A DNA stretch of 55,495 bases from Clostridia bacterium DTU025 (GTDB taxonomy: Bacteria > Bacillota > DTU025). Of this stretch, positions 18,756 through 27,418 are shown piece by piece. Where the stretch lies: the NCBI GenBank assembly GCA_001513145.1, contig LFSP01000023.1:1-55495 (forward strand), given 5' to 3'. The notes under the pieces are model-generated. The model ran no database searches. It worked only from the letters and a program-made list of their open reading frames with translations, and had not been told where the DNA came from. Made by a program: the position numbers and the translations under genes. Within the stretch, counting starts at the first letter, position 1; each line of letters begins with the position of its first letter.

Positions 18756-19636
18756 AATAGATCACTCCTTCTATCGTCGCCTTTGAGCACTGCTTCTCCC
18801 TCATCCAGCGCCTCGGCGATCATGTCGTCGATGGGGAAACCGAATCCCGGTTCCCGCTCCGGGTCCTGCTCCGACCCTGCCTGCATCCGCTCCTGAAGCG
18901 GCCGAAACAACACCAAGAACTCCAGCGTGCCCGAGGAGCCCAGCACCGGCGATGCCATGGCCGCCGAAGGGCGCATCCCCGCCTCTGTGCCGGCACGGCA
19001 CGCTCTCCTGAGCGCCGCCTCATACTGCTCCCGCGACAGGTCCGGCCCGGAGGCCGGCACCTCGAACAGTGGCTTTACCAGCGCCACTATCTCCCGGTCA
19101 GGATCGTCCTGGACCAGGAGGCTAGCCACCACGGGAACCGCCACCGATAGAGACAGGTAGGAAAGGTCCATCACGCCCAGGCTCGGCGGCGGATCCAGGC
19201 TCTCAGGCCTCACGTCGCTGATGTTGGTCCTCTCCATGTTCCGAACCCTGGGATCCTGCCGGAGGCTGCCCGCCAGCTGGCCGTACCCCACGTCCACCGC
19301 GTACACCAGAGCGCAGCCGCGCTTGAGCAGGCAGTCCGTGAACCCTCCTGTGCTGGCACCTGCGTCCAGCGCCACCCTGCCCTCAGTGCGTATTCCCCAC
19401 CGGTCCAACGCAGCCTGCAGCTTCAGGCCTCCGCGCCCCACGTACGGAATGTCGCGGCCTTTGATCCGAATGCCCGCATCGGTGAGCACCGGCGTTCCTG
19501 GCTTGTCGACGCGAACCTCATTCACCAGCACCTGCCCTGCCATGATCAGGGCCTGTGCCTCCTTCATGTGGGAGCAGTATCCCCTGGCTACCAGCAGCTG
19601 GTCAAGGCGGGCGCGGCGTGCCGACGCTCCCTTCAC
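18752..19636 (-). CDS. tlyA: TlyA-family rRNA 2'-O-methyltransferase
   Basis: A 294-residue protein with an N-terminal S4 RNA-binding domain (RLDQLLVARGYCSHMKEAQAL) and an FtsJ-like Rossmann methyltransferase domain (ALDAGASTGGFTDCLL, VYAVDVGYGQLAGSLR, VMDLSYLSL). The family methylates 16S and/or 23S rRNA riboses; older annotations call it hemolysin. The GTG at 19636 fits best: an AAGGGAT site lies about 9 bases upstream, just beyond the T-box terminator, and the S4 domain begins at once. The last 35 or so residues are an acidic extension of low conservation. It is the first gene after the Phe T-box and overlaps pheS by 4 bases. Confidence 0.9.
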   Translation of the reverse strand: MKGASARRARLDQLLVARGYCSHMKEAQALIMAGQVLVNEVRVDKPGTPVLTDAGIRIKGRDIPYVGRGGLKLQAALDRWGIRTEGRVALDAGASTGGFTDCLLKRGCALVYAVDVGYGQLAGSLRQDPRVRNMERTNISDVRPESLDPPPSLGVMDLSYLSLSVAVPVVASLLVQDDPDREIVALVKPLFEVPASGPDLSREQYEAALRRACRAGTEAGMRPSAAMASPVLGSSGTLEFLVLFRPLQERMQAGSEQDPEREPGFGFPIDDMIAEALDEGEAVLKGDDRRSDLL

Positions 19637-19654
19637 CGCATTCACATCCCTTAC

Positions 19655-19922
19655 AAAAAAGCCCACGACGTACGTATGGGACGCAAGTCGTGGACTTCCG
19701 TGGTACCACCCATCTTTGCCTGTGGGCCTCTCGGTTCGGCACGCATGATGCCTCACCTCTGTAACGGGAGGACCCGGCTCAGCCTACAGGCGGAAACCCG
19801 CGTTCAGCCGGCAGCTCAGGAGCGAATTCCGAGCCTCACCTGGGGGCGCTTTCAGTCACGGCGCACCCTCCCTGCGCGCAGGTGCATGCGGCTCCACGGT
19901 CTCCCTCATCGCCTGTGGCACG
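19655..19922 (-). promoter_or_regulatory. T-box riboswitch, Phe (UUC) specifier, tlyA-pheST leader
   Basis: A complete T-box leader on the minus strand. Stem I begins near 19922 with the GATGAGG motif. The specifier TTC (complement of 19824-19826) sits in GGAATTCGCTCCTGAGC, the usual context, and reads Phe. The antiterminator core GGGTGGTACCACGG is at 19711-19698; ATGGG pairs with CCCAT and AAGTC with GACTT around the TGGTACC bulge. The competing terminator CCACGAC/GTCGTGG ends in a run of six T (19660-19655). Uncharged tRNA-Phe should stabilise the antiterminator and switch on tlyA, pheS and pheT. No separate promoter is visible between it and the upstream tRNA-Pro gene. Confidence 0.93.
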
Positions 19923-19943
19923 TTTCCGGTTTTGAAAAACTCT

Positions 19944-20020
19944 TGGTCGGGGCGACAGGATTTGAACCTGCGACATCATGGTCCCAAACCATGCGCTCTA
20001 CCAAGCTGAGCTACGCCCCG
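19944..20020 (-). tRNA. tRNA-Pro (anticodon TGG)
   Basis: A 77-base cloverleaf on the minus strand. The acceptor stem CGGGGCG pairs with CGCCCCG. The anticodon stem-loop is CATGG-TTTGGGA-CCATG, giving anticodon TGG. The T-loop GTTCAAATC is present, the discriminator is A, and the CCA end is encoded (TGG at 19944-19946 on the plus strand). It lies 33 bp after rdgB and about 20 bp before Stem I of the Phe T-box. Confidence 0.97.
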
Positions 20021-20053
20021 ATATCATCAGTCTACCACGGAGCAGGCGCTGGG

Positions 20054-20683
20054 TCAACGAGGGCAAGCCTTCGAGCAGGCGCCTCCGAGCAGCTCACGCA
20101 CGTGGGGCACTATGGCCCTGACGGCGATGGCCCTGTGGGACAACACGTTCTTCTCCTCCGCCGGAAGCTGCGCCAGGGTACATCCGCGGTGGGGCAGGAA
20201 GAACACGGGATCGTACCCAAACCCCCCGTCGCCCATGGGCTCCCGTGCGATCATGCCGTGCAGCTCGCCTAGGGCCGTCCGCATCTCGCCGCTGGGCATC
20301 GCCAGCGCCGCAACGCACACGAACTTCGCGCTCCGCTGGGAATCCGGAACGTTCCGCATGGCCTCCAGGAGCAGCCGGTACCTTCCCTCATCGTCCAGAT
20401 CGGGGCCGCCGTACCTGGCCGACATGACGCCCGGCGCCCCTCCCAGAGCGTCCACGCACAACCCCGAGTCGTCCGCCAGGGCCGGCAGGCCTGTGAACCT
20501 GGCGGCGTTCACCGCCTTCAGCACAGCGTTCTCGCGGAACGTGGCCCCAGACTCCTCCGTGTCCGGCGCCCCAGGCCAGTCTGCCAGGCTCAGCAGTCGT
20601 AGGCCCTCCATGTCCAATATCGCCGCGATCTCCGCAAGCTTCCCTCGATTCCTTGTCGCCACCACCAGCTTATCCGCGGTCAT
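20054..20683 (-). CDS. rdgB: XTP/dITP pyrophosphatase (RdgB/HAM1 family)
   Basis: A 209-residue house-cleaning enzyme that hydrolyses non-canonical purine triphosphates (dITP, XTP) to monophosphates and keeps them out of DNA and RNA. Motifs are VVATRNRGKLAEI (substrate-binding lysine), FRENAVLKA, PALADDSGLCVDAL (metal and base-pocket acids) and GDGGFGYDPVF. The ATG at 20683 overlaps the rph stop by one base (TGATG), so translation is probably coupled. The rph-rdgB order is common in Firmicutes. Confidence 0.95.
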   Translation of the reverse strand: MTADKLVVATRNRGKLAEIAAILDMEGLRLLSLADWPGAPDTEESGATFRENAVLKAVNAARFTGLPALADDSGLCVDALGGAPGVMSARYGGPDLDDEGRYRLLLEAMRNVPDSQRSAKFVCVAALAMPSGEMRTALGELHGMIAREPMGDGGFGYDPVFFLPHRGCTLAQLPAEEKNVLSHRAIAVRAIVPHVRELLGGACSKACPR

Positions 20684-23219: not shown

Positions 23220-25796
23220 CTAGTCCGAAGCCGGCTCGCGCTCAGGCTCACGTTCAGGCCTAGGCTCGGGACCTGGCTCGTTCGTCAGCTCACCGTCGGG
23301 CCCACCGTACTGCGTGCTGGCGGGTGGTTCTTCCTCAGCCTCCCCGACGGCCTCCACGTCTCCTTCGTCGGTACCCCCCGCCGTCGCCTCCGTCGCGCCC
23401 TCGTCCCGATGCGGGACGTCGGTCCCCGGCGGGTCGCTCTCCGGCGTGTCGCCTCCCGGCGCTGTGACCTGAGAGGAACCCTCCTCGGTCACGCTCTCCT
23501 CGAGCCTCTCGGGCAGGGGCCCTTCCAGCCCCTCCGGCACGTCCACCGATTCCTCCGGCAAGCTCTCGCCCGAAGCGGCCTCGCCGCCGGCTGCCGCCGT
23601 GTCCTCTTCCGGCACGCCGTCCTCCGTGGGCCCATCGACAGGCTCTTCCTCGGGCCCCACCGCGGTTCCCTCCTGACCCTCGCCGCCAACGCTACCCGTG
23701 TCGCTCGCGTCGCTCCCATCACCCGCATCAACCGCGTCAACCGCATCGGCGGCGTCGCCCGCGACCTCCGCGCCACTCCCGTAATCCACCACAGAGGGCG
23801 TCCACGTCTCGTCCACCGGCTCGCCGCGCAGCCTCGCCAGCCAGCGCTGGTAAATCTCTGACCGGAAGTACGCCTCGATGCCGTTGAAGATCCCCTCGGC
23901 CGCCTTCTCGCGGAACGACGTGTCCTGCAGCCTCGAGAACTCATAATCGTTAGACAGGAACGCCACTTCCACCAGCACTGCTGGGATGTTGGTGTGCCTC
24001 AGCACGTAGAGGTTCCGCGACTTCACCTTCCTATCAAGCAGGTTGATCGACCGCAGCAGGTACGTGTGCACCAAGACGCCCAGTTCTTGGCTGTATGGCG
24101 CTAGATTATAGTAGAACGTCTCGGTGCCACCCGGGAATATGTCGAACACCGAGTTGCAGTGTATCGACACGAACGCGTCAGCGCCCGACGAGTTCGCCTT
24201 CTCCACGCGCTCCTCGAGCTCCATGCTGATGTCGTCATCCCTGGTCATGACCACCTCAGCCCCGGCCTCCACCAGCAGGTTCCGAAGCCGGATCGCTATG
24301 TCGAGGTTGATGTCCTTCTCGTACACCCTTCCCCGCACCGCGCCCGGGTCAGCGCCGCCGTGCCCGGGGTCTATGATCACGCGCCTTCTCCACAACGGGG
24401 AGACGGCTACCCTTATCCTCAGCCTGCACGGGTCGGGGCGCTCCAGCTCGTGTGCGAAGTCGCCCGGAAGGTCCACCACGGCCCTGGCCGTATCCGGGCT
24501 GAACTGGGCCATCCGCAGACCGATCCCCGTGCTGGTCTCCCCGCTCACCTGTGGGCCCAAGCTTCCGCCGCCTGCGGCCGCCTGGCTCGAAGTCACCGCC
24601 GTCGGCACCCACACGCCGGGGAGGTCGATGGCGATCCTGTGCGGCGCCTTCAGCCGCATCACGTTCACGTCCACCGACCCCGACGTCACCAGCTCCACCA
24701 CAGTGGCCCCAGGCTCATCCCAGATCAGCGCCTCCACTATCTCAACGGCGAAGTCAATCCGCCAACTGGTGCCGTCGTCGCCGGCTCGCCTTATCAGGGG
24801 CCGCAGCGCCTCGCTGGTGACCGCCACGATCCTCACGGTATCGTCATACGCCTGCTCTGCCCGCACCTCCTGGATGCTCTCGCCGCCCAGCTCCGAATGC
24901 TCAAACTCCGCCGGCAGGCTCGTGCCGGGAAGGCTGATCACAGTCACCCCAGGGGCAGACTCCTCCGACAGCACGGGCCTCACAGGCGAAGACGTCCTCA
25001 CCACAAGGCCCGGCATGGCCGACGAATCGTCCAGGCTGACCTCGCTCAACATGGAGTTGAACATCAGTTGGATGCTGGAAAGATCCTCCCCCACCTTGCT
25101 GACTCTGTATCCCACGGGCCGATCCAGGTCGGCCACTACCCTCACCACTCCGGGCCTGTTCATTCCCGCCCTAACCTGGGCAACCCCACCGGCTCCCACA
25201 GACACCGGCACGAACTCGTCCAGGATAACCGCGTCGAAGATGTCCACTACCACCCTGTCAGGCGCGGTCAACGCGAACGCGGTGTAGCTGAGCTCCCTTT
25301 CGCCCGTTATCGCCACCCGGGGCCTTCCATCCTCCACCGCGACATCCACCGACACGACGGCTCGCTTCACGTACACCCTGAGGGTGGAACCACTGGCGTC
25401 AAGCGCCCAGGCCAGGCCGAGGTGGCCGAGATCCTCAACGGCCAGCGCCAGCCTTCCATCGTAAGACATGACGCCCCCCGACAGCTGCTGGCTCGCGCCG
25501 TTCACCGTCACCCTGCCAGACGACGTCGCGAAGATCGCCACCGTGCGGTGGGCGGTGAACACCGCCTCCTTGGTGGCGTCAATCCATTGCACCACGCCTC
25601 CCAGTGCCTCCGCCAGAGGGCGCAGCGGCACAGCCAGGCCGCCATCCTCTCGCCTGATGGCCGTCTCCTGAAGCTGCACGGATGCGCCGTCCCTCTCCAC
25701 CACCACAGAAGGCAGCGCCGCCGCGTCCTGCGCCATGGCTACGCCGGACACGGCCAGGCACGCAAGGGCCACTGCCATTACCACGCGTAAGCGCAA
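23220..25796 (-). CDS. Secreted N-acetylmuramoyl-L-alanine amidase with AMIN domains and acidic tail
   Basis: An 858-residue exported cell-wall hydrolase. It has a signal peptide (1-22, ending AMA-QD), a copper-amine-oxidase-N-like beta domain (about 25-135), two AMIN-type domains (RVVVDIFDAVILDEFVPVSV and RIAIDLPGVWVPTA) that bind peptidoglycan, then an Amidase_3 catalytic domain (about 470-655). Zinc-site motifs are IIDPGHGGADPG, YEKDINLD, VSIHCNS and VLVEVAFLSNDYE. The last 200 or so residues are an unusually acidic Glu/Asp/Pro/Gly/Ser tail ending PEREPEREPASD. It starts at the TTG at 25796 with GGGGGAG 7 bases upstream. The gene stands alone, divergent from the GreA-fusion gene. It could act in vegetative or spore cortex remodelling. 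Confidence 0.92.
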   Translation of the reverse strand: MRLRVVMAVALACLAVSGVAMAQDAAALPSVVVERDGASVQLQETAIRREDGGLAVPLRPLAEALGGVVQWIDATKEAVFTAHRTVAIFATSSGRVTVNGASQQLSGGVMSYDGRLALAVEDLGHLGLAWALDASGSTLRVYVKRAVVSVDVAVEDGRPRVAITGERELSYTAFALTAPDRVVVDIFDAVILDEFVPVSVGAGGVAQVRAGMNRPGVVRVVADLDRPVGYRVSKVGEDLSSIQLMFNSMLSEVSLDDSSAMPGLVVRTSSPVRPVLSEESAPGVTVISLPGTSLPAEFEHSELGGESIQEVRAEQAYDDTVRIVAVTSEALRPLIRRAGDDGTSWRIDFAVEIVEALIWDEPGATVVELVTSGSVDVNVMRLKAPHRIAIDLPGVWVPTAVTSSQAAAGGGSLGPQVSGETSTGIGLRMAQFSPDTARAVVDLPGDFAHELERPDPCRLRIRVAVSPLWRRRVIIDPGHGGADPGAVRGRVYEKDINLDIAIRLRNLLVEAGAEVVMTRDDDISMELEERVEKANSSGADAFVSIHCNSVFDIFPGGTETFYYNLAPYSQELGVLVHTYLLRSINLLDRKVKSRNLYVLRHTNIPAVLVEVAFLSNDYEFSRLQDTSFREKAAEGIFNGIEAYFRSEIYQRWLARLRGEPVDETWTPSVVDYGSGAEVAGDAADAVDAVDAGDGSDASDTGSVGGEGQEGTAVGPEEEPVDGPTEDGVPEEDTAAAGGEAASGESLPEESVDVPEGLEGPLPERLEESVTEEGSSQVTAPGGDTPESDPPGTDVPHRDEGATEATAGGTDEGDVEAVGEAEEEPPASTQYGGPDGELTNEPGPEPRPEREPEREPASD

Positions 25797-25922
25797 CAGG
25801 ATCTCCCCCGTTCAAATCGACGACATTCGTATGTTTTCGACTTGACGGGGCGTTCTCCTTCGCATCCAGCTAGCCGACTATTTCCATACTGGGTGGGCAT
25901 CATACAACTGGGAGGGATACAG

Positions 25923-26942
25923 ATGCGAGTAGGATACTCTGGCAGGCCCCCGTCGCCTCCGTCCCTGAGAGGGCGCTGGTCGCCCTCGGACCGATTCCGA
26001 CGCTACTCCGCAGCGGTGGCTGACGCAGGTCTCGACTGCGTGGAGATTCCGGCAAATCTGCTATTGGGCAAGGGAGACTGGCGAAACCAGCTCCTGGCCG
26101 AGTGCACCAACATGCAGTCGCCAAGGGCCGGCTTCCCCGACGTTCAAGTGATGATGCGACTTGGAGACCAGCACTTGGCCGAGCCCGCGAACGCCGCGTA
26201 CGCCAGACAGCTGGCCGCTCTCTACGGAGGCTACCTGGTAACCATGGCCTATCGTCGCTCCAGGGGCGCGCAGCTCGATTCACTGGCGGGCGTCTCAGAC
26301 GAAGGGGGTGCCCCCTTCGGGATCATAGCGGATTGGCATAACCCGCTGGCCGCCGCGGCGTGCATGGAGGCCGCCCGCCGGCGCCCGGGGTGGATGGTGC
26401 TGCCCTCCATCACCCTGGGGCGAGAACAAGGACAGGCTCTCGCCGCCACAGCCCGGCGGGCGCTGGCTACGTGCGTCGAAGCCAACGGTTCGCCCAGCGC
26501 GTGCCTGTACGTCGCCGGCCGCTTCGAGTACGGCAGGTCCACTCCACACAGCGCCGACGTGTACACACTGGTGAAGGCGGCACTCGCCTTCGAACACTCG
26601 CACTCAGCATCGATCTCGCTGGTGTTCACCGGCGTCTCCGCGGCCGCGATGGCGGCGGAGGCGGCCGGAATGCGGGCGGCCCTGACAGGCGACGCGCTGC
26701 GCCTGGACGGGCGAAGGAGGGTTCCCCAAATAGGAAGCAGGGTCAGGATCCGCGACGTGGAGCTCGGCGCCGACCTGGAGTACTTCATAGTCCCGCCGGA
26801 ACACGCGTCGGCGCCTCACGGGATGCTGTCGTCGGAGTCCCCGGTGGCCAAGGCGATCTTGGGCAAGCCCTGCGGCGCCTGCGTGGAGGTGTCAGCTCCG
26901 GGAGGGACAATCATCTACGAGCTCCTGGACGTCATCAACTGA
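25923..26942 (+). CDS. TIM-barrel-like domain fused to a GreA/GreB C-terminal domain
   Basis: A 339-residue two-part protein. Residues 1 to about 260 look like an alpha/beta barrel of the sugar-phosphate isomerase/AP-endonuclease kind, with regular strands such as GLDCVEIPANLLL, YLVTMAYRR, FGIIADWHNP, WMVLPSITLG and SISLVFTGV; I cannot assign catalytic residues. Residues 267-339 match the GreA/GreB C-terminal FKBP-like domain very well (IGSRVRIRD, EYFIVPPEHA, SSESPVAKAILGK, PGGTIIYELLDV). The Gre N-terminal coiled coil with its acidic tip is absent, so transcript cleavage is not expected. The ATG at 25923 has GGGAGG 8 bases upstream. The XRE gene follows 119 bp downstream on the same strand. 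The C-terminal call is firm; the function is unknown. Confidence 0.8.
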   Translation: MRVGYSGRPPSPPSLRGRWSPSDRFRRYSAAVADAGLDCVEIPANLLLGKGDWRNQLLAECTNMQSPRAGFPDVQVMMRLGDQHLAEPANAAYARQLAALYGGYLVTMAYRRSRGAQLDSLAGVSDEGGAPFGIIADWHNPLAAAACMEAARRRPGWMVLPSITLGREQGQALAATARRALATCVEANGSPSACLYVAGRFEYGRSTPHSADVYTLVKAALAFEHSHSASISLVFTGVSAAAMAAEAAGMRAALTGDALRLDGRRRVPQIGSRVRIRDVELGADLEYFIVPPEHASAPHGMLSSESPVAKAILGKPCGACVEVSAPGGTIIYELLDVIN

Positions 26943-27061
26943 CGGTTTCTGTCCAAGGCTTGTTAGTTTTACTGACAGGACACTTCTGAGCCGGAATCCT
27001 TGCTGTGAGTCGCTTCAAACCTGCGTCGCTTGCCGTTACGATGGTAATCGGAGGTGAGCGC

Positions 27062-27418
27062 TTGCAGTACAGAGATCTTCTCAGCAGGATCGGCCAGAGG
27101 ATACGCGAGACGCGCGAATGGAAGGGGCTGAGTCAGACCCAGCTATCCGAAGCTTCCGATATCACCGACAGCTTCCTCAGCCAGATCGAGAGGGGCAGGA
27201 AGGCGCCTTCAATGGACAAGTACTGCCGCATCTCTGCCGCGTTGCACGTGGATCCTTCGCTATTGATGGCGCCGGGGGATGATGAGAGAGCCAAGGCCCT
27301 CCGGGAGCTGATGGTGACGCTGAGCGACTGCCCGTTGGACCTCATCTATACGGCAACGGAGATCAGCAAGCAGCTGGTTTCCTACGACAAGACAATTCGT
27401 AAGGGCCCTGAGGACTAG
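27062..27418 (+). CDS. XRE-family helix-turn-helix regulator
   Basis: A 118-residue protein with an N-terminal HTH_3 domain (RIGQRIRETREWKGLSQTQLSEASDITDSFLSQIERG, split here as residues 8-44) of the SinR/Xre type, then a helical C-terminal part (LRELMVTLSDCPLDLIYTA) that may mediate dimerisation. The TTG at 27062 with GGAGGT 6 bases upstream is a better start than the in-frame GTG at 27005. It sits 119 bp behind the GreA-fusion gene. The stop codons of this gene and of glgM share a CTAG palindrome on opposite strands. Confidence 0.85.
   Translation: MQYRDLLSRIGQRIRETREWKGLSQTQLSEASDITDSFLSQIERGRKAPSMDKYCRISAALHVDPSLLMAPGDDERAKALRELMVTLSDCPLDLIYTATEISKQLVSYDKTIRKGPED

Follow-up and report, generated by a model that had tools for sequence, protein, structure and literature searches.

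What does the C-terminal domain of a Gre factor do when the coiled coil in front of it has been replaced by a TIM barrel? This question is raised by one gene of the analysed stretch of 55,495 nucleotides, here called the window. The complete gene encodes 339 amino acids at 25923..26942 on the forward strand, as indicated by the open reading frame, Pfam and relatives. It runs from an ATG at 25923 to a stop codon ending at 26942, the coordinates first given for it. A ribosome-binding site, GGGAGGG, was read from the sequence at 25910..25916 (+), with the ATG 6 nt further on. A promoter scan found none, and two terminator-like sites were found against 1.0 expected.

The initial annotation had placed a Gre C-terminal domain at the end of the protein, and Pfam agreed. 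The GreA/GreB C-terminal domain PF01272 was matched over residues 269-337 (26727..26933, +) with an E value of 1.7e-14 and 53.9 bits, well over the cut-off of 26.9. It was the sole Pfam family matched in the window protein. The assignment is also backed by residue conservation and a structural match, with Z scores of 11.6-12.2 for the Gre C-domains of the predicted models against Gfh1 and GreA. The residue pattern SESPVAKAILGK...APGG lined up with E. coli GreA (1grj). In the alignment, the codons for S303-S304-E305-S306-P307 (26829..26843, +) corresponded to E. coli GreA S121...S124-P125. The GreA_GreB_N coiled coil, PF03449, had no match in the window protein even at E 10. A barrel was predicted in its place in two AlphaFold models, so the proposed replacement of the coiled coil stood. 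The same genome encodes an ordinary GreA of 163 residues with both Gre domains on another contig.

The spread of the fusion, which the initial annotation had proposed to check, extended beyond the window. The barrel was carried by nine of the 12 searched genomes of the order, eight of family f1 and one of family f2; it was not found in the three f3 genomes G009-G011. These f3 genomes also had no nfo match, and they kept a Gre gene and mfd. Eight of the nine copies in the order were intact. The copy in G004 contains a run of N, was read as two pieces and was therefore omitted from the barrel alignments. A profile of this window group found nothing beyond the same nine in 398 genomes of the phylum. 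A diverged copy was present in another class, of which two genomes were searched. In G050 the Gre match lay in a 388-residue frame. The same barrel, with 57% identity, is encoded in G091, where the contig breaks off before a Gre domain could be seen. A profile of the G050/G091 pair revealed no third clear lineage in the 398 genomes. For its weak matches, a UvdE match lay at an overlapping place in four genomes (G017, G102, G135 and G190). The search of the 398 genomes with PF01272 covered best matches only and hence gives no count of long Gre fusions. A chance origin of the fusion is excluded, because nine genomes of the order keep it and another class has one further complete copy.

The two groups are orthologous with moderate confidence. 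Proteins of both begin with M-[RK]-[VI]-G-[FY]-x-G-x-P. The full-length profile comparison was colinear over residues 1-378 versus 1-354 (probability 98.5%, E 1.8e-15), a value that includes the Gre domain common to every GreA. The comparison of the barrels in hhalign was weak, with a probability of 6.8% and E 0.005. A tree of the Gre domain placed the 10 fusions on one side and 23 GreA proteins on the other (support 87/72, 84% of 200 bootstrap trees), a split to be read with a long-branch warning. An earlier C-domain tree that included the E. coli fragment split the fusions, and its E. coli branch was very long. Both domains are under purifying selection. For the barrel, four pairs gave dN/dS ratios of 0.11-0.23; the Gre domain had ratios of 0.045 and 0.144 in two pairs. 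Two of the eight values, those of the C-domain for G003-G006 and G006-G007, were undefined since synonymous change was saturated. A separate Gre gene was present in all 11 barrel-bearing genomes (9/9 of the order, plus G050 and G091).

Conservation within the C-terminal domain bears on whether it still binds RNA polymerase. The reference for the comparison was an E. coli fragment together with 23 GreA proteins from the phylum. In E. coli numbering, G89, V92, Y105, V108, A113, S121, S124, P125, G132, V139, P144 and G146 were kept in 10/10 fusions, and so was the motif S-x-E-S-P. According to one study, the globular domain of GreA binds the beta-prime rim helices, and the substitution S121P in E. 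coli GreA weakens binding to RNA polymerase (PMC7527559). A review names the C-terminal domain as the binding part in Gre-family factors (PMC4598747). The PF01272 domain of the fusion is a putative dock for the beta-prime rim helices. Two positions conserved in 23/23 GreA proteins were mostly altered in the fusions, E112 (H/Q/M/E/N) and P115 (A/V/P). The docking surface may have changed, because both differ in most fusions.

Such altered positions would also fit a Gre fold reused away from polymerase, in a cytoplasmic sensor or regulator whose C-domain dimerises or binds a ligand and which may act with the regulator encoded downstream. A gene of the XRE helix-turn-helix type lies immediately 3' of the fusion at 27005..27418 on the same strand, and this arrangement recurs in several loci. 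An XRE homologue was detected in five of the six extended f1/f2 loci (L050-L055) and also in L036. It was absent in L050, however, and no XRE gene turned up beside the fusion copies of G050 and G091. A link between the XRE gene and the fusion would be conjectural. The S-x-E-S-P motif kept in every fusion speaks against reuse, as does the stronger constraint on the C-domain than on the barrel in the two pairs with dN/dS for both. We regard this reuse as unlikely.

On the other side of the gene, both fusion groups adjoin, divergently, a cluster with an N-acetylmuramoyl-L-alanine amidase. In the window, the divergent amidase gene (AMIN, Amidase_3) at 23220..25796 (-) marks this conserved neighbourhood. 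In G091 as in the window, this cluster includes RNase PH and RdgB; in the window, RNase PH was named from its translation and RdgB was supported by blastp. A gene of the size of glutamyl-tRNA synthetase and one more gene intervene in G050 and G091, with Pfam names available in G091 only. Two further genes intervene between fusion and cluster in G050. Elsewhere in the window, the open reading frame at 19568-20272 (+), whose translation contains GATGFEPATSWSQTMRSTKLSYAP, lies antisense over tRNA-Pro (19944-20020, -) and is spurious.

The barrel comprises residues 1-255 (25923..26687, +). Its assignment draws on AlphaFold models, fold searches, a sub-threshold PF01261 match in the G050 relative, hhalign of that relative and conservation. 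The two models, built from four orthologue sequences only, had a mean pLDDT of 69 for the window protein and 74 for the G006 protein. In both, strands and helices succeed one another as in a (beta-alpha)8 barrel, and the Gre domain comes after them. Helix alpha4 was missing from the first model, at a place where pLDDT was low. The top VIA-align match of both models was SacUVDE, with Z 15.7 at an rmsd of 3.8 (232 aligned) and Z 16.2 at an rmsd of 3.7 (235 aligned). Among other families, the leading matches had Z 12.8 and 13.8, a ranking that holds among the listed families only. Endonuclease IV reached Z 12.9 (rmsd 4.0, 230 aligned) with the second model and Z 11.5 (rmsd 4.0, 203 aligned) with the first, and sugar epimerases were also among the matches listed. 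The models thus suggest a fold of the xylose-isomerase-like or AP_endonuc_2 superfamily, to which endonuclease IV and UVDE-type barrels are assigned here. The AP-endonuclease-like barrel originally proposed was right at this superfamily level.

Sequence searches located the kinship in the relatives. Neither Pfam nor NCBIfam assigned the window barrel to a barrel family. The proposed search with PF01261 accordingly gave no match in the window protein, while the G050 orthologue matched AP_endonuc_2 with E 6.5e-5 and 23.2 bits, under the cut-off of 31.1. TIGR00587 (nfo) was absent among the matches of the window protein at E 10 and did not match the G050 barrel. UvdE (PF03851) had no Pfam match at E 10 in the window protein or the G050 orthologue. 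In hhalign, the G050/G091 barrels matched a set of 21 endonuclease-IV-like proteins from the phylum with a probability of 96% and E 1.4e-9, against 0.15% for the reversed control. The same pair gave 30% against 28 canonical Nfo proteins and 91% against 30 UVDE proteins, with reversed controls below 1%. Window-group barrels had no significant match in the same sets (0.5% endonuclease-IV-like, 0.2% canonical Nfo, 0.2% the 30 UVDE), nor did a pooled profile of both barrel groups. For the window protein itself, membership of the superfamily is therefore deduced from fold and orthology. Against PDB sequences, the G050 barrel and the barrel profiles gave weak matches to unrelated chains only.

The endonuclease-IV-like set used 21 of 22 proteins; L094 was omitted as it had the same 281-residue match as L093. 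The canonical Nfo set was L059-L086, all 28 used, with the fragment L087 and L088 omitted. The 22 proteins of the former type (L093-L114; G015, G061, G099 and others) are free-standing, of the type of P0004, and occurred in 22/149 genomes. P0004 itself was under the nfo cut-off. A protein of this type was present in none of the five fusion-bearing genomes listed (G000, G001, G002, G008 and G050). Two further loci, nfo-like G033:C1:3276875-3277339 and UvdE-like G049:C14:116673-116987, each contain an internal stop codon and are possible pseudogenes.

The conservation of barrel active-site residues that the initial annotation had proposed to check was not found. Ligand columns were read from an alignment of the 21 endonuclease-IV-like proteins, the 28 Nfo proteins and the G050 and G091 barrels, in P0004 numbering. 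Eight columns, which we take to be the metal ligands of endonuclease IV, were fully conserved in the 21 proteins. The G050/G091 barrels kept two acids of these, E149 and E262 (E/D). They had T/S for H69, P/F for H109, N for D178, E for H181 and P for H232; the H216 column is unsure, as the alignment is gapped there. The eight barrels of the window group shared 37 invariant positions, which included seven Arg, one acid (E41) and neither His nor Asp. The set of His, Asp and Glu ligands of endonuclease IV was thus not found in the fusion barrels, and the metal ligands are not conserved in residues 1-255. Judged by these positions, the catalytic residues seem to be gone from the barrel, which would make it a pseudo-nuclease.

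This loss weighs against an active enzyme tethered to polymerase, be it a DNA-repair nuclease or a sugar-phosphate isomerase, to which the nearest folds, UVDE and endonuclease IV, would otherwise point. Canonical nfo was present above the cut-off in 9/9 fusion-bearing genomes of the order, and mfd was matched in the same 9/9 (in G006 partially and below the cut-off), which also argues against such an enzyme. With the ligands mostly lost in G050/G091 and a single invariant acid in the window group, we consider catalysis very improbable. The idea that an enzymatic or sensing domain is brought to polymerase was hence upheld in one part, since the Gre C-domain keeps the polymerase-binding motif, and not in the part of an active enzyme. 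The fusion as a replacement for Mfd was ruled out separately, as mfd was matched in 61/61 genomes, 60 of them above the cut-off.

The invariant residues may instead mark a sensor of a small molecule, an anion or a nucleotide, through which the docking of the Gre C-domain to polymerase is switched. The seven Arg among the 37 invariant residues would suit such a ligand, as would an invariant S-G-R-P after strand 1 and R79, where strand 3 ends. The distribution of the conserved positions makes this doubtful. Invariant residues were not enriched on the catalytic face, with four observed in the beta-alpha loops against 6.6 expected. Seventeen of the 37 lie in helices, a placement equally in keeping with a protein interface.

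We put a probability of roughly one half on the fusion being a Gre-family factor that docks on polymerase in addition to GreA and carries a catalytically dead barrel of the endonuclease IV/UVDE type instead of the coiled coil. It would compete with GreA and act as an anti-Gre factor or a regulator of pausing or backtracking. The Gre C-domain would bind the beta-prime rim helices where the secondary channel opens. This channel is too narrow for a TIM barrel, so the barrel would sit outside, at or beside the pore. Placed there, it would exclude GreA and perhaps also touch extruded RNA, DNA or a partner. Since GreA would be blocked at the rim, an anti-Gre factor or a pausing or backtracking regulator is the best reading, and a cleavage factor would not be expected. 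A variant in which the dead nuclease fold, tethered via the Gre dock, holds nucleic acid at the secondary channel seems rather improbable. It would recognise backtracked RNA or damaged DNA at a stalled polymerase and either couple arrest to repair or shield the RNA from cleavage by GreA.

Docking factors of the secondary channel are known as a C-domain with a coiled coil, and the acidic tip of the coiled coil of E. coli GreA is formed by D41 and E44. The fusion resembles GreA and GreB in its C-terminal domain, 69 residues by PF01272, with the polymerase-binding motif kept. It differs from them in the lack of the coiled coil PF03449 and hence of an acidic tip reaching the active centre. Further parallels are Gfh1, Rv3788 and Rnk, which are Gre-like and bind polymerase without stimulating cleavage (PMC4598747). 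There, the coiled coil of Rnk is described as too short for the active centre, and Rnk still binds polymerase and displaces or competes with Gre factors (PMC4598747). These proteins have the Gre C-domain in common with the fusion, and Gfh1 and the Rnk structure 3bmb were among its best structural matches; competition with GreA is a likely further common trait. They keep the coiled coil, short in Rnk, whereas the fusion does not, and the text consulted describes no TIM barrel in any of them (PMC4598747).

Endonuclease IV (Nfo) and the free-standing P0004-type proteins share the barrel fold, and sequence kinship connects them to the G050/G091 barrels. The fusion differs from them in metal ligands that are mostly lost and in the attached Gre C-domain. 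UVDE was the best structural match of the fusion barrel (Z 15.7-16.2). It differs in turn, since the fusion has neither a Pfam UvdE match at E 10 nor conserved ligands. Six listed genomes from the order of the window showed no UvdE gene. NCBIfam holds longer GreA-containing proteins by name, PRK14720 and PRK06330. The open-licence literature searched contained no description of an architecture that joins Gre to an AP endonuclease, a TIM barrel or endonuclease IV, in agreement with the initial view that the layout was undescribed. A literature search for named Gre residues likewise gave no result. The fusion points to an undescribed kind of polymerase-binding factor. If this is true, the Gre C-domain would be a portable polymerase-binding module, and the fusion would provide a natural test of what rim-helix occupancy does when no probe enters the channel. 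A further, testable idea is a connection between the folds of repair nucleases and the stalled polymerase.
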